From: a virus
Length of the DNA: 23,182 bases
Direction: 5' to 3' (one strand)
Virus record (IMG/VR): IMGVR_UViG_3300047172_000033
Coordinates: 1 to 23,182 of that record
Positions 157-15,728 of this stretch are shown piece after piece (the first letter of the stretch is position 1; each line of letters starts with the position of its first letter). The notes beneath the pieces are model-generated. The model was not told where the DNA came from and ran no database searches. It worked only from the letters and a program-made list of their open reading frames with translations. The translations under genes were made by a program, and so were the position numbers.

Positions 157-291
157 GTGGTCTACATCACCCGAGTCCAGATCGGCGGCATGATCGAGCA
201 CTACCGCTACGCGAGCAGGGCCGCGCAGATGCGCGACCTCAAACGAAGGGGAATGGTCACCGCTTGGAGTTCGCGCCAAGGTCGGCGATGA
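157..291 (+). CDS. Small hypothetical protein on the plus strand (44 aa)
   Basis: This is a GTG-started ORF of 44 residues preceded by a well-placed GGAG six bases upstream. It begins VVYITRVQIGGMIEHYRYAS and ends in a basic tail. Its codons are strongly biased to G or C at the third position, as in the real genes of this window. It is convergent with the lipoprotein gene and overlaps its last 35 bases. It is the only well-supported plus-strand reading frame in the left part, lying between the IS end and the phage genes. I do not recognise a family. It could be a small host or phage regulator, or chance. Confidence 0.35.
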   Translation: MVYITRVQIGGMIEHYRYASRAAQMRDLKRRGMVTAWSSRQGRR

Positions 292-1516
292 TCTTGAGCA
301 CGTCCTCAGCGATCACGATCGCCCCCGCCTTCGCCTTGAGGTCCGTGAGCAGCTGCAGCACGTCCGCGATCACGGCCGGATTCACTCCGGACGCCTTCAG
401 ATCGTCGGCAACGCTAACCGCCGGGCCCGTCGTCACCGCCGTGAGAGTGCCGTTCGTGTACGTGTAGGTGATCGACCCGGTGAACCCCGGGCCGACCGGA
501 GTCGGCGTGGGTGTCGGAGTAGGGGTAGGGGTCGGCGTCGGGGTTGGCGTTGGTGTGGGGGTGGGCGAAGGAGTCGGCCCGGGGTTGGGTTGCGGCTTGC
601 CGTTCACCGTCGCCGTCGGGTTGCGGAGCCACGCTTCCGCGACGGTGGACATGATCCACGCGTGATCGACGAACCCGATCGACGACCAGGTGAACAACAA
701 GTAACCGGTCTGCGTCGGTTGGAGCGCGGCCGGGAGCGGGACGTTGAGCGCGGCGAACAGCGCCTGAGCGGTGCCGTATCCGGCGAGCGACACACAGTGA
801 TCTTCGTTGCCGAACTGTTGCGGCGTGCCGCCCGTCGCGTACCACCCCTGTTGATTCCCGGCCGTCTGGGGGAGCGCCGTCGAGTCGATCCCGATCTTCA
901 CGGGCGCGATCGCGAGCGCCGCCTGTAGGGTCGGCTCGTCGCCGAAGTTGACGCTCGTGTATCCGCCGATGCCGTAGGTGTTGCCGTTCTGGCTGAAGCC
1001 CGATTTGGCCATCGCGTCCATCACGTCCGTCAGGGTCGCGCCGTCGAGAAAGCCCCCCGCGCCGGCCCACGTTCGGACGGTGGCGTCCTGGATGAACACG
1101 CCCGCGGCGTCCTGGTTGAACGCCTCCTCGGCGGTCACGCAATCGCCGTCCTGGTCGTTGAGCCACATGCTCAACTGCTTGGGGACGTAAGCGACCGTCG
1201 CGGGGATCGCCTTGCCCGGTGCAGGCACGAACGGCTTCGCGGCGAAGATCTTGTGTTTGGGGGTCGGCTTGGCCCCCTTCTTGAACGTCTTCTTGACGAC
1301 CGGCTCACCGGCGCGGACCGGCACCGGCGAATCCGAGATCGTCAGCGGATCGCACTTCGGCCCCTGCGCGATTCGATCCGGCGCCGGGGCCGGCTTTTGC
1401 AGCCGCGGCAGGGCGGGCGTAGTTGGCACGGCGGGGGCGGCGGCCCGGGGCGCGGCGCACAGGGCGCACCCGGCGAGCGCGAGCGTGAGGACCGGGAGCA
1501 ACAGGCGGCGGATCAT
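257..1516 (-). CDS. Papain-like lipoprotein with Pro-Thr stalk
   Basis: Residues 1-17 are a lipoprotein signal (basic start, hydrophobic core, lipobox Leu14-Ala-Gly-Cys17), so the mature protein should be membrane-anchored outside the cytoplasm. After a proline/alanine-rich spacer, residues ~115-300 carry landmarks of a papain-type cysteine peptidase: DQDGDCVTAEEAF (Cys126), EDHCVSLAGYG (His240) and a late FTWSS segment (~275-279) where papains have NSWG, with the usual Asn not conserved. Residues 313-340 are an almost pure Pro-Thr repeat, a flexible stalk leading to an unrecognised helical C-terminal domain (~345-419). The ATG overlaps the stop of the upstream TM mini-gene (ATGA). It could be a lysis endopeptidase, an exclusion factor or a surface protein; the peptidase fold is an inference from motif spacing. 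Confidence 0.6.
   Translation of the reverse strand: MIRRLLLPVLTLALAGCALCAAPRAAAPAVPTTPALPRLQKPAPAPDRIAQGPKCDPLTISDSPVPVRAGEPVVKKTFKKGAKPTPKHKIFAAKPFVPAPGKAIPATVAYVPKQLSMWLNDQDGDCVTAEEAFNQDAAGVFIQDATVRTWAGAGGFLDGATLTDVMDAMAKSGFSQNGNTYGIGGYTSVNFGDEPTLQAALAIAPVKIGIDSTALPQTAGNQQGWYATGGTPQQFGNEDHCVSLAGYGTAQALFAALNVPLPAALQPTQTGYLLFTWSSIGFVDHAWIMSTVAEAWLRNPTATVNGKPQPNPGPTPSPTPTPTPTPTPTPTPTPTPTPTPVGPGFTGSITYTYTNGTLTAVTTGPAVSVADDLKASGVNPAVIADVLQLLTDLKAKAGAIVIAEDVLKIIADLGANSKR
497..580 (-). repeat. Degenerate hexamer repeat encoding a Pro-Thr stalk
   Basis: About 13 alternating Pro-Thr pairs are encoded (residues 313-340 of the lipoprotein) by hexamers that differ mainly at third codon positions. The drift at synonymous positions means the protein repeat, rather than the DNA repeat, has been kept. 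A length-variable linker of this type commonly separates an anchored domain from a distal one. Confidence 0.85.
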
Positions 1517-1644
1517 TGGTCACCAGGGAACGGGGTTGGGGCGAACGGGCCGATCGACTTGATTTTCCAGACCAGAACCATGACCAGGTCCAGAACGACC
1601 GCGAACGTAAACGCGAGGACGAAGAGTTTGGCGAACAGGTTCAT
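1513..1644 (-). CDS. Single-TM mini-protein, holin-like candidate (43 aa)
   Basis: A 43-residue protein beginning MNLFAKLFVLAFTF has one strong hydrophobic helix at about residues 5-28, followed by a short basic turn (WKIK) and a proline-rich tail. Both ends overlap neighbours by four bases in the ATGA arrangement: its start with the stop of the TM/coiled-coil gene, and its stop with the start of the lipoprotein gene. The three are therefore almost certainly co-translated. Size, single helix and position between a spanin-like protein and a secreted peptidase-like protein suggest a holin or other lysis accessory. The sequence alone does not show pore formation. Confidence 0.6.
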   Translation of the reverse strand: MNLFAKLFVLAFTFAVVLDLVMVLVWKIKSIGPFAPTPFPGDQ

Positions 1645-1970
1645 AAGTGCGTGAGGGGTTTGGTGTTGGCCGCCCGCTGCGCCTCCTCCAGCGCGCTCAG
1701 GCGGAGTTCGGTCGTCTGGTGCTTCTCCTGGCAGTCGTCGAGCTTCGCCGCCGTCTCCGCGTGCGACTCCTCGCACGCCTGCGACCGCCGCTCGGCCTCG
1801 GTCGCCCGCGCTTCGAGGGTGGCGGCCTTCTGTTCGAGCAGCGCGGTCTTCACGCCCGCGCGCGTCTGGGCGATCTTGACGGCGGCCGCCGACACCGCGG
1901 CGACCGCGGTGCCGACCATCGAGACGGCCGCGAAGGCGACCGCCACCCAGGTCAGGCTGTTGCTTTCCAT
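1641..1970 (-). CDS. N-terminal TM plus coiled-coil protein, inner-membrane spanin-like
   Basis: The 109-residue product starts MESNSLTWVAVAF. I chose this ATG because GAGG lies about seven bases upstream. Residues ~7-35 form a membrane helix, and residues ~40-100 are rich in Ala, Glu, Gln, Arg and Leu with heptad-like spacing, predicting a long coiled coil, interrupted by Cys residues in QACEES and DDCQEK. This is the layout of Rz-type inner-membrane spanins, and the downstream genes encode a TM mini-protein and a lipoprotein, which would suit a lysis cassette. Alternatives are a generic membrane-anchored coiled-coil protein or a mislocated tail accessory. It opens the cassette after a 154-base gap. 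Confidence 0.55.
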   Translation of the reverse strand: MESNSLTWVAVAFAAVSMVGTAVAAVSAAAVKIAQTRAGVKTALLEQKAATLEARATEAERRSQACEESHAETAAKLDDCQEKHQTTELRLSALEEAQRAANTKPLTHL

Positions 1971-2124: not shown

Positions 2125-3852
2125 TCACGGCGCGAGTTCCCACAACCCGGCCGCGTTCACCCGCACGTTCACTCCCCCCGTCGTTCCGCCGACCGCCAGC
2201 GTCCCGGCCGGGATCGTCACGGGCGCCGCCCAGGTGTTCCACTTCGGATCGGCCGGCAGCACCCACGTGACACCCCGCGGGCCGGTGTTGAGGAGGGTCG
2301 TCGTGAACCCCGCACCGCGACCCGCCGCGCTCAACGTGACCGGCATTCCGCCGGCTACCGGCTTGGCTTGCCCGTTGAGGCGAGAGATGCCGTTGGTCGG
2401 GTAGACCGTCAGAGCCGTGTCCGTCGCGCTCGCGTCCAGCTTCACCCCGGGCACCGCCACGCCCTGCCACACCGTCCCGCTGACGACGGGTGCGGCCACC
2501 GACGCCAGCCCGATCGACACGTCGCACGCGCCCGGCGCGACGACGGAACCGGTGACCGTCGAGCCCGCCAGTGACGCGAAGGAACCCGACAGTACCGCCG
2601 CCCCGCTCTTGCTGACGGTACAGTTGCGCACGGTCAACCCGGTCCAGCCTTGCCCCTGCCCGCAGATGCCGCCCAGCCCGTTGAACGTGCAGGTGTCGAA
2701 CAGGGAATCGGTACACCACCCGCCCGACATGATGCACGCCTGTGCCGTCGTGTTGAACGTCGCCTTCGTGAACGTCACGTTCTGGACCCGAGTTGTCAGC
2801 GACAGTCCGCGATCGCCGGTCAGGGTCGTATTGCTCACGGTCAGGAACGATTTCGTAACCGTGTTGTTCTGCACCCACGCGACCGCATTGGACCGCGCGC
2901 CGATGGTGCTGTTGCTGATCGTCAGGGAGTGTTGATCGACAACGGCCTGATTCTCGCACCCCTGAAAGACATTCGGCCCGATGGTGCTGTTGCTGATCGT
3001 GACCGCCGCGGAGCACGACACCGCGTCGGCGTTGGACTGGTCGAGGGTGCAGGTGTCGAGCGCGATCGTCGCGCCGGCCGGCAAGCTGGCGTAGCAGATT
3101 TCGCCTCGCCAGTTCTTCGCCGTACAACCCTTGATGACCACCGCGCCGAACGGCTTCCCGCCGCCGAACAGCCAACACTTGTGCGTCATGTCCCAGCCGT
3201 CGCCCGTCGCCGGGATTCCGCCCACGGTGTAGTTGCCGGTAGCGGGCGCGCCGCCGTCGAACGTCAGCCCCTGAAACGTCAGCGTGCCCGTCAACCCGCC
3301 GGTACACGAGAACATCCCGAACCGCGCGATCTTGAAGTAGCTCTGCCCGGTCGTCGTCCAGGTCGTCGCCGGGTCGGCCAACCCCGGCATGTAGCCGCGG
3401 ATCGTCGCCGCGCCGTCACTGCTCCAGGTCGCCGCGCCGCCGATGGTGAAGATCGGCCGATATGGCGGCGCAGTCGTTGCCGGTGCCGGGTCCGTCGGTT
3501 GCGGGCAGACGGCATACGTCCCGGCCGGGAAGTAGATCGTCCCGGCGCACGCCTCCGCTGCCGCCTGCGCCCGCCGGATGGCAACCGTCGAGTCGGCCAC
3601 CCCTTTCGGGTCCGCGCCGTAGTGCGTCACGTCGAAGACGGTCGGCCGGAAGTCGGAGACGCACTTCGCCGCCGCGGACTGGACGGCCGGCGCGCTCGTG
3701 CCCTTGAGAGCCGCCACCAGCGCGGATACGTCATTCTGAAGGGCCGGGCTCAGTGCCGACACGTCCACGCTGACCGGCGATTGCGCCACGACGGGCGCGC
3801 CGAGGGATACCAGTGCCAGAGCCGCCAGTGCGAATCGCGCAACGAACCGCAT
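2125..3852 (-). CDS. Secreted right-handed beta-helix (pectate-lyase-3-like) protein, tailspike-like
   Basis: The ATG at 3852 has GGAGG six bases upstream and opens a Sec signal peptide (residues 1-24: MRF, hydrophobic core, cleavage near VVAQ-SP). Residues 72-113 contain the pectate-lyase-3 entry motif: VFDVTHYGADPKGVADST, an AIRRAQAA helix, then TIYFPAGTY. Residues ~150-480 are a run of beta-solenoid rungs with recurring SNSTIG, SNTTLTG and TLDTCTL motifs. Such folds occur in phage tailspikes and secreted polysaccharide lyases. A signal peptide is unusual for a virion part, since virion proteins assemble in the cytoplasm, so this could be a secreted depolymerase or a cell-surface protein carried by the prophage. 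I cannot place catalytic residues with confidence. Confidence 0.75.
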   Translation of the reverse strand: MRFVARFALAALALVSLGAPVVAQSPVSVDVSALSPALQNDVSALVAALKGTSAPAVQSAAAKCVSDFRPTVFDVTHYGADPKGVADSTVAIRRAQAAAEACAGTIYFPAGTYAVCPQPTDPAPATTAPPYRPIFTIGGAATWSSDGAATIRGYMPGLADPATTWTTTGQSYFKIARFGMFSCTGGLTGTLTFQGLTFDGGAPATGNYTVGGIPATGDGWDMTHKCWLFGGGKPFGAVVIKGCTAKNWRGEICYASLPAGATIALDTCTLDQSNADAVSCSAAVTISNSTIGPNVFQGCENQAVVDQHSLTISNSTIGARSNAVAWVQNNTVTKSFLTVSNTTLTGDRGLSLTTRVQNVTFTKATFNTTAQACIMSGGWCTDSLFDTCTFNGLGGICGQGQGWTGLTVRNCTVSKSGAAVLSGSFASLAGSTVTGSVVAPGACDVSIGLASVAAPVVSGTVWQGVAVPGVKLDASATDTALTVYPTNGISRLNGQAKPVAGGMPVTLSAAGRGAGFTTTLLNTGPRGVTWVLPADPKWNTWAAPVTIPAGTLAVGGTTGGVNVRVNAAGLWELAP

Positions 3853-3927: not shown

Positions 3928-4107
3928 TTGGATTTGCCCCTCGAGGCGGCGCTCTTGGTGCGCGACGCCCAGCTCACCTTCTTCCAGGCCAAGCAGCTCA
4001 AGCTCGGGCGGTACAAGCGGTTCACCATCGGCTCCAAGTACCGGCAGCCGGAACCGGTGTGCGACGCCGGGTGTGCGGCTGCGGCGCGTGTCAGTTGGCG
4101 ACCGTAA
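3928..4107 (+). pseudogene. Coding-like plus-strand remnant (59 aa, no clear start)
   Basis: From a TTG at 3928 this frame reads LDLPLEAALLVRDAQLTFF, continues through LKLGRYKRFTIGSKYR, and stops at 4105-4107. From about 3934 to 4060 nearly every codon ends in G or C (for example CTC AAG CTC GGG CGG TAC AAG), which is the signature of coding DNA in this genome and is weaker in the minus-strand frames of the same interval. No Shine-Dalgarno is visible and the frame begins in the leader of the spike gene. I do not recognise the family. It may be the end of a gene truncated by recombination, or a coincidence of composition. Confidence 0.25.
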
Positions 4108-4195
4108 CCGATGCTGAACTCGGCGGGCAGCTCGTGGAGGCCGGGACGGCCTTAGCTTCGTCCACGGTCAGCCCGAACGTGTAGGTCGGTTGCAC
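4091..4195 (-). pseudogene. Small phage ORF, probably frameshifted (34 aa as read)
   Basis: A GTG at 4195 follows AGGAG at good spacing, 16 bases after the stop of the upstream gene. It opens QPTYTFGLTVDEAKAV, then turns into Pro/Ser-rich residues and stops. Reading one base back after the GCC at about 4143 gives LHELPAEFSIGYGRQLTRAA instead. From memory, short phage proteins of the form TFxLTxDEAxxVLxxLxELP are common downstream of tail genes, so the composite fits better than the literal reading. A one-base deletion, or a sequencing error, is the simplest explanation. The literal peptide may still be expressed. Confidence 0.4.
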
Positions 4196-4211
4196 GCGCG
4201 CTCCTCTCGGC

Positions 4212-4799
4212 TCACGAGGTCGGGGACGTTTCGGCCTTGGCCGCGCTCTCGAGCGCGGCGAGCACCTGGGCGTAGGTGAACGGCTGGAGGCTCGACCAGT
4301 TGCCGCTCTTGCCGGCCGCGATGATGGCGTTGAAGCCCTGCGTCACGCTGGCCCGGACGTACGCCCGCAGCGCCTGCGCCGCCGGGTTGGCGGACGTCAG
4401 CAGCCACGCGATCGCCGCCGCGGCCGTCAGGTTGCACTGGGCCTGCGCCGCCTGGGCGGCGGTGAGGGCCGCGGCGGCCGCGGCGACGGCCGCGTTGGTC
4501 GGCACGGCCGTGCCCTTCGCCGCGTTCCAGGTGGCGATCTGGGGGCCGGTCGGGGTTGCGGTCACCGTCCAGTCGGTCCACGGCGTGTAGGCCGGGTAGG
4601 TGAGCACCAGCGCGGACACGAAGCCGGTCGGGTCGGGGACCGCCTGCGGCAACCCCGTCGCCGGGTTCACCGACTGAACGCTTCCGGCCCCGCCCCCCCA
4701 CGGGGCGACGGTCGCGCCGGGATACAGGGCCGCCAGGTTGGGCAGCTGCCAGTCGTCGTGTGTGGCGATCACGTTGCCGTTGGCGATGATTAGTTGCAT
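4212..4799 (-). CDS. Hypothetical tail-fiber-associated protein (195 aa)
   Basis: The start MQLIIANGNVIATHDDWQ is preceded by AAGGAAG at suitable spacing and lies 13 bases after the fiber stop. Residues 1-80 look globular, with NGNVIATH and a YPAYTPWTDWTVT stretch. Residues ~95-195 are very alanine-rich and helical (AAVAAAAAALTAAQAAQAQ) and end in a Thr/Ser tail. I do not recognise a family. The position directly behind a long fiber gene is where fiber chaperones or tip accessories are often found, but nothing in the sequence identifies it as one. Confidence 0.6.
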   Translation of the reverse strand: MQLIIANGNVIATHDDWQLPNLAALYPGATVAPWGGGAGSVQSVNPATGLPQAVPDPTGFVSALVLTYPAYTPWTDWTVTATPTGPQIATWNAAKGTAVPTNAAVAAAAAALTAAQAAQAQCNLTAAAAIAWLLTSANPAAQALRAYVRASVTQGFNAIIAAGKSGNWSSLQPFTYAQVLAALESAAKAETSPTS

Positions 4800-4812
4800 G
4801 CCGCTTCCTTCC

Positions 4813-7800
4813 TCACGACATCGAGGCGCCGCTGTTGCCGGTCGAACCCGCCGCCGGGCTAGCGTTCGTCGTGCATGACGTGTACGTGGTGCCGACCTGT
4901 AACGCCTGCGTGCCGTCCTGCGCGTAGACGCCGTAGGTGCAACTGGTGACGGACGCGTTGCGGAAGTAGACGTTGCTCACGGCCGCGCCGAACACGCCGT
5001 ATGTGAACGTGGAGATCGACACGCTTCCGCCGAACACGTACAGCCGGCCGTTGTTGACCTGCACCCCGACGTTGGCGCCCGCGTACCCCGTCAGCGAAGT
5101 GCCGTTGGTGAGGTACAGGCTGCCGCTGCTGGACGCCTGTGTGGCGTTGTAGCAGCCGGTGACCGCCACGCCGCTCAGTGCGACGAGGGTGTTGCTGACG
5201 GCGACGCCGGTCGTTGTCCCGCTGCTCGGGCCCGACACCCCGAGCGAACTGAGCAGAACCAGGCCGCCCGGTTGGGAGCAGGAAATGCCCCCGGTCGTGA
5301 AGCTGAGGACGCTGGAGGCGCTGCCCTGGCCCAGCAGCTGGAACGTGCCGCCCGACGCCGCGAGGGTCAGCGTCGTGGTGGTCATCGCGTAGGTGGTGGA
5401 CGCCTTCAGCGAAACCGTCAGGGTCGCGCCCGAGCCGATCACCGCCGTGTTGCAGAACGCCAGGGCCGCGACGAGGCCGGCGGCGGTTGCCGCGAACCTG
5501 GTCCCGTCGGCGGCGACGGTCGTGCTCGTGACGCACTGGACCATCTGCCAGTACGTGCCGGTGTCCGTCGTCGGGTTGTGATTGAGATTCGATCCCGAAT
5601 AGATCGACTGGTACAGGTTGCTGTCCGACCCGGTGACGAGACTGTACTGGGTGTACCCGACGGCCGAGGACCAGGGCGTCAGCGCGTACCCGGTCGCCGC
5701 CGCCGCCCACTGAGGGAGCGCCCCCGGCCCCTGCGAGGTCAGCACCTGCCCGCTCGTGCCGACGCCGCTCACCTGCTGGAGCGCGCCCGTCGAGGTCGTC
5801 CCGCCGCAGAGCACGGCGTAGGTGGTGAGGGTGCTCAGGCCGGTGCCACCGCCGCCGGCCCCGAGCGTCCCGCTCAGGTTCGCCGCCGTGTACCCGGTGC
5901 AGTTCGTCAGCGTCCCGCCGGCCGGCGTCCCGAGCGCGATGCTCGCGCCGAACGACGTGAGCGAGGACGACGTGACGCCGGTCGCCAGCGCAGTGCCGGT
6001 GAGCGTCCCGGCCGCCGCGGGCACGGTGATGTTCGCGGTGCCGTTGAAGCTCGTACCGTTGATCGTGCGCGCGGTCTGGAGCTGTGTGGCCGTCGCCGCG
6101 TTGCCGGTGAACGCGCCGGCCGCGGTGATCTGGCTGACGGTCGAGCCGTTGATCTGGAACTCGACGATGTCCGCGGTCGCGCCGGTGGGGGCGTTGAGCA
6201 CCAGCGGCACCACGGAGCCGGAGGCGGTCTGGATCGTCTGCGCCGCCGACCAGGTGTTCGCGCCGCTGAGCAGCGGGATCGTGCCGCCGCTGGTCCCGGT
6301 GTTGACCGTAGCCGCGGTGCCGAGGCCCGTCACGCCGGTCGCCGGCAGCCCGGTGCAGTTGGTCAGCGTGCCCGACGCCGGGGTGCCGAGCACCGGGGCC
6401 GTGAGCGTGGGCGCCGTGAGCGTCTTGTTGGTGAGCGTCTGGGCCGTGGTCAGGGTCGCGGCGTCGGTGATTCCGTAGCCGCTCACCGTCGTCGGCTGGC
6501 CGGTGAGCCCGATCCACGGGACCGCCGTCAGCCCCGACCCGGAGCCGCTGAACGAGGTCGCGGTGAGGTTGCCGCCGTAGTCGATCTTGGCGAGCGTGGT
6601 GCCGCCGCTGGTCGTGGCGTCGAACAGGTCGGCCGTCTGCGAGGTCGCGCCCTTGACGGTCAGCGGGGTGTTGGTCGCGGCGGAGGCGTTGACCGTCTGC
6701 CCGGCGGTGAACGTGTTCGCGCCGAGGGTGGCGTAGGAGCCGCCCGACCCCAGCGCCACACAGACGCCGCCGGCGAACGTGTCCCCGCCGCCGCCCGTCC
6801 CGCTGACGCCGAACACCGGCGCGGCGGTGCCGGCGCAGAACCCGAACCCGTTGGCGACGATCGGCACCCCGGCGTTGCTCCGGAGGGTCGAGCCGTTGAG
6901 GTAGTACCAGCTCGTCGCCAGGTGGGTCGGCGCGGTGTACGAGTAGTACGACGGGATCAGGTTGAGTTCGCCGGTGACCGTGATCGTGTTGAGGTTGTTC
7001 GTCGCGCTGTACGCGTGCCCCGGGGTGTAGTTGACCGCGTCCCCGCGCATGGCGAGGCTCATCTGGCCGCCGCTCTCCGCGGTGGTGAAGGCCGCGCCCT
7101 GGAGCGTCTTGGCGCCGGCCAGCGTCTGGCTGCCGGTGGTGATCACCCCCTGCGCGCTGGTCGAGGCCGACACCAGGTCCACTTGCACCGTGCCGGCGGT
7201 CGGCTGCGACAGCGAGAATCCGTCCGCCGAGACGAAGTTCAGGGTCCCCGTGTTCGTGTAGTTGGTCCCGATCGTCTGGTCGTGAACGGTGATCACACCG
7301 CTCGGGGTTCCCCACTTCACGCCGAGCGCCTGGGTGCTGTCCGCCTCAAGGAACGTCCCATTGGTTCCGACGGGGATCCGCGCGTCGGAGGAGCCGAAGC
7401 CCCAGATGTCCCCCTTGGTCGTCAGCGGCGACGTGATCCCGCCGCCGCCGCCCATGTCCCCCTGCAACAGCACCAGGGCCGTCACTGTGCCCGTGGTGCC
7501 GCTCTGCCACACGATCTTGGCCGGGCCGCCGTCGGTCGCGCTCTTGAGTCCGGCCGTGCCGACCGTGGAGTCCGGGACGGCGTAGCCGTCGCCCATCGTG
7601 TTGATCGTGAGCCGGACCGGAACCAGGCCGAGGACCACGGCCCGGACGGTTGCGCCCGGCGCGGCCGGCTCGATCGTGATCGCGAACGGGTTCAGGTAGC
7701 TCGTCGGCGCGGTGCCGGTGAAGGTCGGCGTCTCGCGGGCGAGCTGCGGCTCGACGCGCGGGTCGATGCCGGGAGTGCCGAGCGCGAGTACCGAGAACGG

Positions 7801-14975: not shown

Positions 14976-15728
14976 TTAAATGGTGGGGGTGTCGCCCGGG
15001 TCGGTCGCGTACTCGCCCCACACCCGATCGTTTCGGTACTCGACGCCGCCCGCCCCCAGGTGCGCGAGCGGCACTTTCCGGGTCACCTTGACCGAGAGCC
15101 CGGCCCGCGCCGCCCACACGCTGAAGGACCAATCTTCGGGCAGGCACGAGGCCACGAACCGCCCGTCCGGCAGCCGCTTCACCCCGTCGAACATGTTCCT
15201 GAAGCCCGGGAACTCGTCGCACCAGTCCCCGAACCGGCACAGCCAGAGGCCGGTATTGACCAGGAGCGTTTCGGCCCCGTCGCCCCGTGCGATCCCGGCG
15301 GCCACCAGGTCCGCCAGGTCGAACGTCGGCGGGAGCGTGAACAGCTCGGCCAGCGTCAGCCGGCGGACCTCGCCCGTGGTCTGGTTGTGGACCGCCGTAC
15401 TGGTCAGGCCCCTGGCGTCCTTGAGCGGGACCGCGACGCTCACCACGTCGGCCCCGGTCGCCTGCATCTCATCGAACAGCACGTCCGCCCAGCCGGCCCC
15501 GACCTCGATGTCGTCGTGGCACATGGCGAAGAACCGCACGCCGTCCGTGCGGGAGTTCAGCGCCCCCGCCCAGAGCTGGTTGAAGCTCAGGTTGAGCAGG
15601 CTCCCCGCCGTGCGCGCCAGCCGGGCCGGGGCCCGCAGGCTCGCGCGCGGGTACGCGCCGGGGTCGGCCGCCGCGCACCCGGGGCGGCGCGGGTAGCCGA
15701 CGAACAGGGTCAGCGGGGCCGGGTCCAT
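14976..15728 (-). CDS. Glycosyltransferase-like protein (GT-A type) within the structural operon
   Basis: Residues 66-74 (FFAMCHDDI) give the end of a core strand with an acidic pair at Asp72-Asp73, the place of the metal-binding DxD in GT-A glycosyltransferases. LPEDWSFSVWAARAG (197-210) matches the region with the catalytic base and the following helix, and LAHLG (221-225) gives the late His common in family 2-type enzymes. It would move a sugar from a nucleotide donor to an unknown acceptor. The 250-residue length suits a minimal single-domain enzyme. It sits between decoration protein and connector genes, suggesting that virion proteins are the acceptor. The start ATG at 15728 has only a weak GGAA Shine-Dalgarno. 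Confidence 0.6.
   Translation of the reverse strand: MDPAPLTLFVGYPRRPGCAAADPGAYPRASLRAPARLARTAGSLLNLSFNQLWAGALNSRTDGVRFFAMCHDDIEVGAGWADVLFDEMQATGADVVSVAVPLKDARGLTSTAVHNQTTGEVRRLTLAELFTLPPTFDLADLVAAGIARGDGAETLLVNTGLWLCRFGDWCDEFPGFRNMFDGVKRLPDGRFVASCLPEDWSFSVWAARAGLSVKVTRKVPLAHLGAGGVEYRNDRVWGEYATDPGDTPTI

Follow-up and report, generated by a model that had tools for sequence, protein, structure and literature searches.

The papain-fold endolysins known so far fall into the CHAP, NlpC/P60, C39-like and related branches. Mycobacteriophage Lysin A has papain-family N5 domains (PMC3314691), and papain-like lytic enzymes also include PlyC and PeiW/PeiP, with triads reduced to dyads being known (PMC10318531). 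Xylellain-type C1A peptidases have also been reported in Caudoviricetes, as horizontal acquisitions (PMC10380794). The protein described here, P0001, resembles the papain-fold endolysins (LysA N5, CHAP enzymes such as PlyC, and the PeiW/PeiP isopeptidases) in that it would be a papain-like cysteine peptidase used for lysis; however, those enzymes represent CHAP, C39-like or other branches, whereas the nearest fold of P0001 is that of C1A, and its cutting of the cell wall is putative. The gene cassette of P0001 is also reminiscent of the Rz/Rz1 spanins, with a TM/coiled-coil protein and then a proline-rich lipoprotein. Unlike a small outer lipoprotein, that of the cassette comprises 419 residues with a papain-like core and is enzyme-like; furthermore, its closest relative has no lipobox, and the TM/coiled-coil protein, P0003, has no significant match to a spanin profile. 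A search of the literature found no paper describing this cassette.

The window, i.e., the whole analyzed stretch of 23,182 bases, belongs to a tailed phage of soil-type bacteria and carries a minus-strand series of genes for terminase, portal, a fused protease/capsid, tape measure, tail and spike. The cassette is placed 256 bases from the end of this record, which is probably a fragment of a genome. It consists of three minus-strand genes, each junction (P0003/P0002 and P0002/P0001) being an ATGA overlap, followed here by the parts of P0001 and the neighboring gene:

1641..1970, minus strand: TM/coiled-coil protein P0003 (109 aa), N-terminal TM and then a charged helix, inner-spanin-like topology
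1513..1644, minus strand: single-TM protein P0002 (43 aa), ATGA overlap on both sides, holin-like only by size
257..1516, minus strand: papain-like lipoprotein P0001 (419 aa; AlphaFold2 model, fold searches, alignment)
1466..1516, minus strand: signal peptide and lipobox LAGC of P0001, residues 1-17 (sequence)
602..1306, minus strand: predicted papain-like catalytic core of P0001, residues 71-305 (AlphaFold2 pLDDT, VIA range), including a pro-region-like N-terminal part
1139..1141, minus strand: codon of P0001 Cys126, invariant in 36 of 36 sequences
797..799, minus strand: codon of P0001 His240, invariant in 36 of 36 sequences
494..589, minus strand: Pro-Thr stalk of P0001, residues 310-341 (sequence; low-pLDDT stretch), Pro-rich stalks being alike in stalk-type relatives
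2125..3852, minus strand: beta-helix tail-spike-like neighbor (phrog_2234, E 3.7e-10; PF12708, E 1.7e-8; signal-peptide heuristic)

The open reading frames and overlaps agree with the first-pass annotation, which had described three ATGA-coupled genes, the products being a TM/coiled-coil protein, a TM protein of 43 residues and a lipoprotein. A gene caller based on codon usage picked all three (scores of 45 for P0003, 13 for P0002 and 112 for P0001), and these scores, together with the existence of homologs, rule out chance open reading frames. P0003 starts at the ATG at 1970, with an SD-like GAGG upstream. The neighboring spike, which is pectate-lyase-like, has at its start what looks like a Sec signal peptide, MRFVARFALAALALVSLGAPVVAQ, and in L033 and L037 the papain-like gene is likewise preceded by large signal-bearing proteins. 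Near the left end of the record, a direct repeat (GGTGGTCCAGAATT; 75-88 and 99-112, 24-base spacing) is reminiscent of the ends of insertion elements. A minus-strand gene of the head operon (14976-15728) appears by eye to contain a glycosyltransferase-2-like domain, for which Pfam gives no match.

P0001 begins with MIRRLLLPVLTLALAGC, which contains a clean lipobox (LAGC at 14-17), and continues with an Ala/Pro linker, the conserved core, a (PT)n stalk (∼310-341) and a helical C-terminus. The core (∼71-305) was modeled by AlphaFold2 with a pLDDT of ∼95, and papain-family peptidases, pro-forms included, dominated the matches of the model in the PDB (Foldseek E 8.5e-8). With VIA-align, residues ∼70-303 were aligned to proenzymes, best to xylellain (PDB 3ois; Z 17.4 over 200 residues) and procathepsin K (Z 17.3). 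Like xylellain-type C1A peptidases, P0001 is predicted to have a single-domain papain fold, with the Cys and His boxes and a GA..VLDxM..G segment in register; it differs from them by Asn120 at the position equivalent to Gln19, by TW in place of NSWG, by the Pro-Thr stalk and by the coupled phage membrane genes. The fold match to mycobacteriophage Lysin A (LysA of MOOREtheMARYer) was weak (E 7e-3). When the family profile was compared with PDB sequences, cathepsin L, ficin and actinidin scored best (E 0.0022 to 0.01), with the alignment falling on the His box. Profile–profile comparison of the family with true bacterial C1A enzymes gave a short in-register match only, so that the papain assignment is carried by the fold evidence. 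P0001 remained below the cut-off for Pfam Peptidase_C1 (PF00112; E 0.15, 12.6 bits versus a gathering threshold of 20.7), matched NCBIfam only with its stalk, and had no known peptidoglycan hydrolase domain in PHROG, Pfam and NCBIfam searches. Its matches to PHROGs 15511 and 21473 reflect Pro-Thr low complexity and were discarded.

In an alignment of 36 sequences, N120, G124, D125, C126, H240, C241, W277 and P300 were invariant. The position of the oxyanion Gln, six residues before the Cys, was occupied by Asn120 in 36 of 36, and the place of the third catalytic Asn (NSWG) reads (T/S)W by sequence, W277 being present in all 36; the canonical Asn of C1A is thus probably replaced, by Trp. With Asn120 at the oxyanion position and TW in place of NSWG, P0001 is here called papain-like, as derived from or close to C1A, and is not filed as a member of C1A. 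It would be a divergent papain-like peptidase of putative catalysis and substrate. At the level of the predicted fold and the conserved Cys126/His240 dyad, P0001 is papain-like. The first-pass annotation had named these two residues as the papain-like pair and had proposed structure prediction as the check; the AlphaFold2 model indeed has a papain fold, and both residues are found in every one of the 36 aligned sequences.

The two membrane proteins could be characterized by topology. P0003, with its N-terminal TM and coiled coil, has the topology of an inner spanin, and its best Rz-like spanin PHROG was not significant (E 0.037-0.13). For P0002, no family match was obtained in PHROG, Pfam or PADLOC searches, and neither protein had a significant homolog in PHROG, Pfam or the comparison with neighbors in related phages. 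A resemblance of P0003 to a neighbor of the papain-like gene in L029 (21% over 99 residues, E 0.002) is a coiled-coil match and was taken as topology only, and tblastn matches to a “holin” of Gordonia phage (E 4-6) were considered chance. The membrane partners are thus not recognizably homologous between phages; topology alone recurs. Of the order inner spanin, holin, outer lipoprotein read from the cassette beforehand, the topology stands, and spanin (best Rz PHROG E 0.037) and holin are putative identities based on that topology.

Iterated searches recovered the papain-like family, which is undescribed in Pfam and NCBIfam, from 28 viral and nine bacterial contigs; a plasmid search yielded no match, and P0001 had none at E 0.01 in the phage collection. 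Most relatives comprise ∼235 aa and lack an export signal. Phages resembling that of the window commonly have a stalk type, in which the C-terminal tail is rich in Pro. Signal peptides were found in the window protein and in L030, L031 and L040, and an N-terminal TM in L002, so that the export modes of the family are none, signal peptide/lipobox and N-terminal TM; endolysins likewise vary in their export route. The closest relative (phage G003, locus L022; 55% identity to P0001) has no export signal, and the lipid anchor can accordingly not be upheld as a general feature of the papain-like protein. The bacterial copies are solitary chromosomal genes (Acidobacteria, Bacteroidota, Alphaproteobacteria); copies standing alone and outside prophages occur in Acidobacteria, Edaphobacter, Mucilaginibacter and Mesorhizobium.

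Some members have additional features. A Granulicella MAG contig (L019) contains tandem papain-like paralogs (4080-4844 and 5009-5809), and two bacterial copies have C-terminal repeats that by eye are propeller-like and beta-trefoil-like (L015, 913-2481; L018, 5980-7098). On a phage contig (L040, 5923-7671), a trypsin-like serine peptidase (GDSG) appears to share a single open reading frame with the papain-like domain. A short amphipathic helical module, fused to or adjoining the papain domain, was considered as a shared element and is not claimed, as profiles built from one set failed to recognize the other (best E 0.048). Distant relatives match PHROG 19005, of unknown function (L010, 7e-18; ctsHD2, 4e-25), whereas P0001 itself did not match this profile. 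PHROG 19005 proteins (e.g., UOF82311.1 of phage ctsHD2) have the same ND..G(D/N)C, H and TW signature as P0001, and Komagataeibacter phage phiKX2 carries a protein similar to these relatives. The ctsHD2 protein, the gene of which overlaps an amidase gene, differs in being only 23% identical to P0001 and in lacking stalk and lipobox.

The window protein forms a clade with those of L022, L023, L025, L027 and L030 (support 100/97). In L025, L027 and L030, the gene immediately upstream of the papain-like one encodes a TM/coiled-coil protein, and in G003 the order is tail fiber, TM/coiled-coil protein (141 aa), 2-TM protein (102 aa) and papain-like protein, with a gap of ∼850 bases before the latter. 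The three-gene order, which the first-pass annotation had suggested looking for in other prophages, thus recurs in the closest relative, and far from lying always away from such partners, four of the five clade homologs adjoin topologically alike genes; in L023, the papain-like gene is part of the head module. Small TM genes were found more often within two genes of the papain-like gene (38/99) than elsewhere (40/309; p 1e-7), as counted over 26 viral loci, related ones of which are not independent. Enrichment of TM/coiled-coil genes alone near the papain-like gene was not significant (p 0.07). A heuristic predictor called Sec or lipoprotein signals more often in genes up to six away from the papain-like gene (21/271 versus 3/137, p 0.016). 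The cassette is therefore more than chance, as this type of module recurs beside homologs, and the P0001 gene, as would be usual for an endolysin gene, is part of a late module that includes small membrane proteins. Two other arrangements were observed next to family members: in L004 (6741-7211) and L043 (6644-7207), a permuted papain (C92-like) gene is located directly 3′ of the papain-like gene (weak similarity between the two, E 0.003), and on viral contig L003 (7359-9768) cytochrome-c-like proteins and a TM protein of 38 residues, with an ATGA overlap, are encoded after the papain-like gene.

As the window is probably a fragment, the earlier statement that no ordinary endolysin is visible cannot be judged from it alone; a further endolysin could lie beyond its left end. 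G003 and G007, which have exact terminal repeats (123 and 127 bp, respectively), were therefore taken as complete genomes. A panel of seven endolysin families (Amidase_2, GH24, NlpC/P60, M15_3, SLT, CHAP and M23) gave no match in contigs G001-G005 and G007-G012. This panel misses lambda-R-like and lysozyme-like enzymes, which are known in G014 and G015 (GH19, the control of which was unmatched, is not counted); complete Pfam scans and custom queries were therefore added. The complete scans found no endolysin family among the proteins of G003 and G007 (E<0.01), with Pfam missing some divergent endolysins such as a lysozyme-like protein of L008, and no endolysin was among the 25 of 31 PHROG families listed for G007. 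Nine divergent endolysin queries from relatives detected none in the window, G003, G007, G005 and G001, apart from one marginal coiled match in G007 (E 0.0068). An unrecognized endolysin in G003 or G007 is possible. Elsewhere, separate lysis enzymes do occur in phages with the papain-like gene: GH24 in G013, M23 in G006, a lambda-R-like enzyme in L037 and lysozyme-like ones in L008 and L039; in G016, an SLT domain lies inside a 757-aa frame. The statement is thus supported for the related complete genomes, in which none was recognized, but not for several other phages. The same applies to the suggestion that the peptidase replaces the muralytic enzyme: since the family coexists with lysis enzymes elsewhere and its bacterial copies are solitary, replacement could apply to one branch at the most.

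The best explanation, to which we give close to even weight, is that the cassette is a late envelope-disruption (lysis) module with a divergent papain-like peptidase as its enzyme, catalysis, substrate and lysis all being putative; the interpretation in the first-pass annotation is, as a whole, partly supported. In such a module, the three genes, following the tail-fiber/spike genes, would be translated as a coupled unit, and P0003 and P0002 would act on the inner membrane, preparing or breaching it. P0001 would reach the envelope by Sec export, lipid anchoring and its flexible linker, and its Cys126/His240 dyad would cut peptide bonds there, either in peptidoglycan peptides or in envelope proteins, until the cell bursts. 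Sister proteins without a signal would need release by a holin. For the window's clade of planctomycete-like phages, the papain-like protein may be the chief lytic enzyme, and elsewhere a relative could be auxiliary, working beside a glycosidase, amidase or M23 enzyme. Rather doubtful is the stricter proposal, in which this clade has a divergent peptidase of C1A type (papain/cathepsin-like) as its sole or main endolysin and sister phages bring it to the envelope by different routes, namely holin release, an N-terminal anchor or Sec export with lipid anchoring. Planctomycete-like features, such as the LEARDVPA-type N-terminus of a neighboring protein in G003, suggest on general grounds that Planctomycetota may be the hosts of the window's clade.

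A possible, if less probable, reading is that P0001 is an accessory exported peptidase (a moron) at the surface or in the periplasm, which alters the envelope of the host or serves in competition with other cells while something else causes lysis. The solitary non-prophage bacterial copies, the coexistence with real endolysins, the enrichment of genes for exported proteins nearby, and the phiKX2 relative, which lies near the integrase in a phage with separate lysozyme-like genes, all point this way. However, most members have no export signal, which would be odd for a constitutively exported enzyme, the gene in the window clade follows the tail-fiber region beside TM/coiled-coil genes, the usual place of lysis genes, and neither G003 nor G007 has another recognizable lysis enzyme. 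The position of the gene among or next to those for terminase, portal and capsid in L005, L006, L010, L023 and L038 would instead fit a virion-associated peptidase or structural processing enzyme serving assembly or entry; this is improbable, as the Sec signal and lipobox of the window copy do not fit well with virion assembly in the cytoplasm and the family shows a strong enrichment of small membrane genes beside it. Least probable is the superinfection-exclusion system at the cell surface that had been offered as an alternative. Lipobox, stalk and two membrane partners do resemble exclusion lipoproteins, in layout only, but PADLOC gave no match for P0001 and P0002 and only E 0.049 to the coiled coil of JetC for P0003, the lipid anchor is absent even in the closest relative, and a late position downstream of tail genes and an invariant catalytic dyad speak against it.

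If the lysis module is the correct reading, the range of lytic enzymes would be extended by a cathepsin-like branch acting in phages, and it would become testable how phages of little-studied Gram-negative soil bacteria (Planctomycetota, Acidobacteria) break the envelope without a standard endolysin. Through the papain-like family, phage genes are moreover connected to genes of unknown function that stand alone in Acidobacteria and Bacteroidota.
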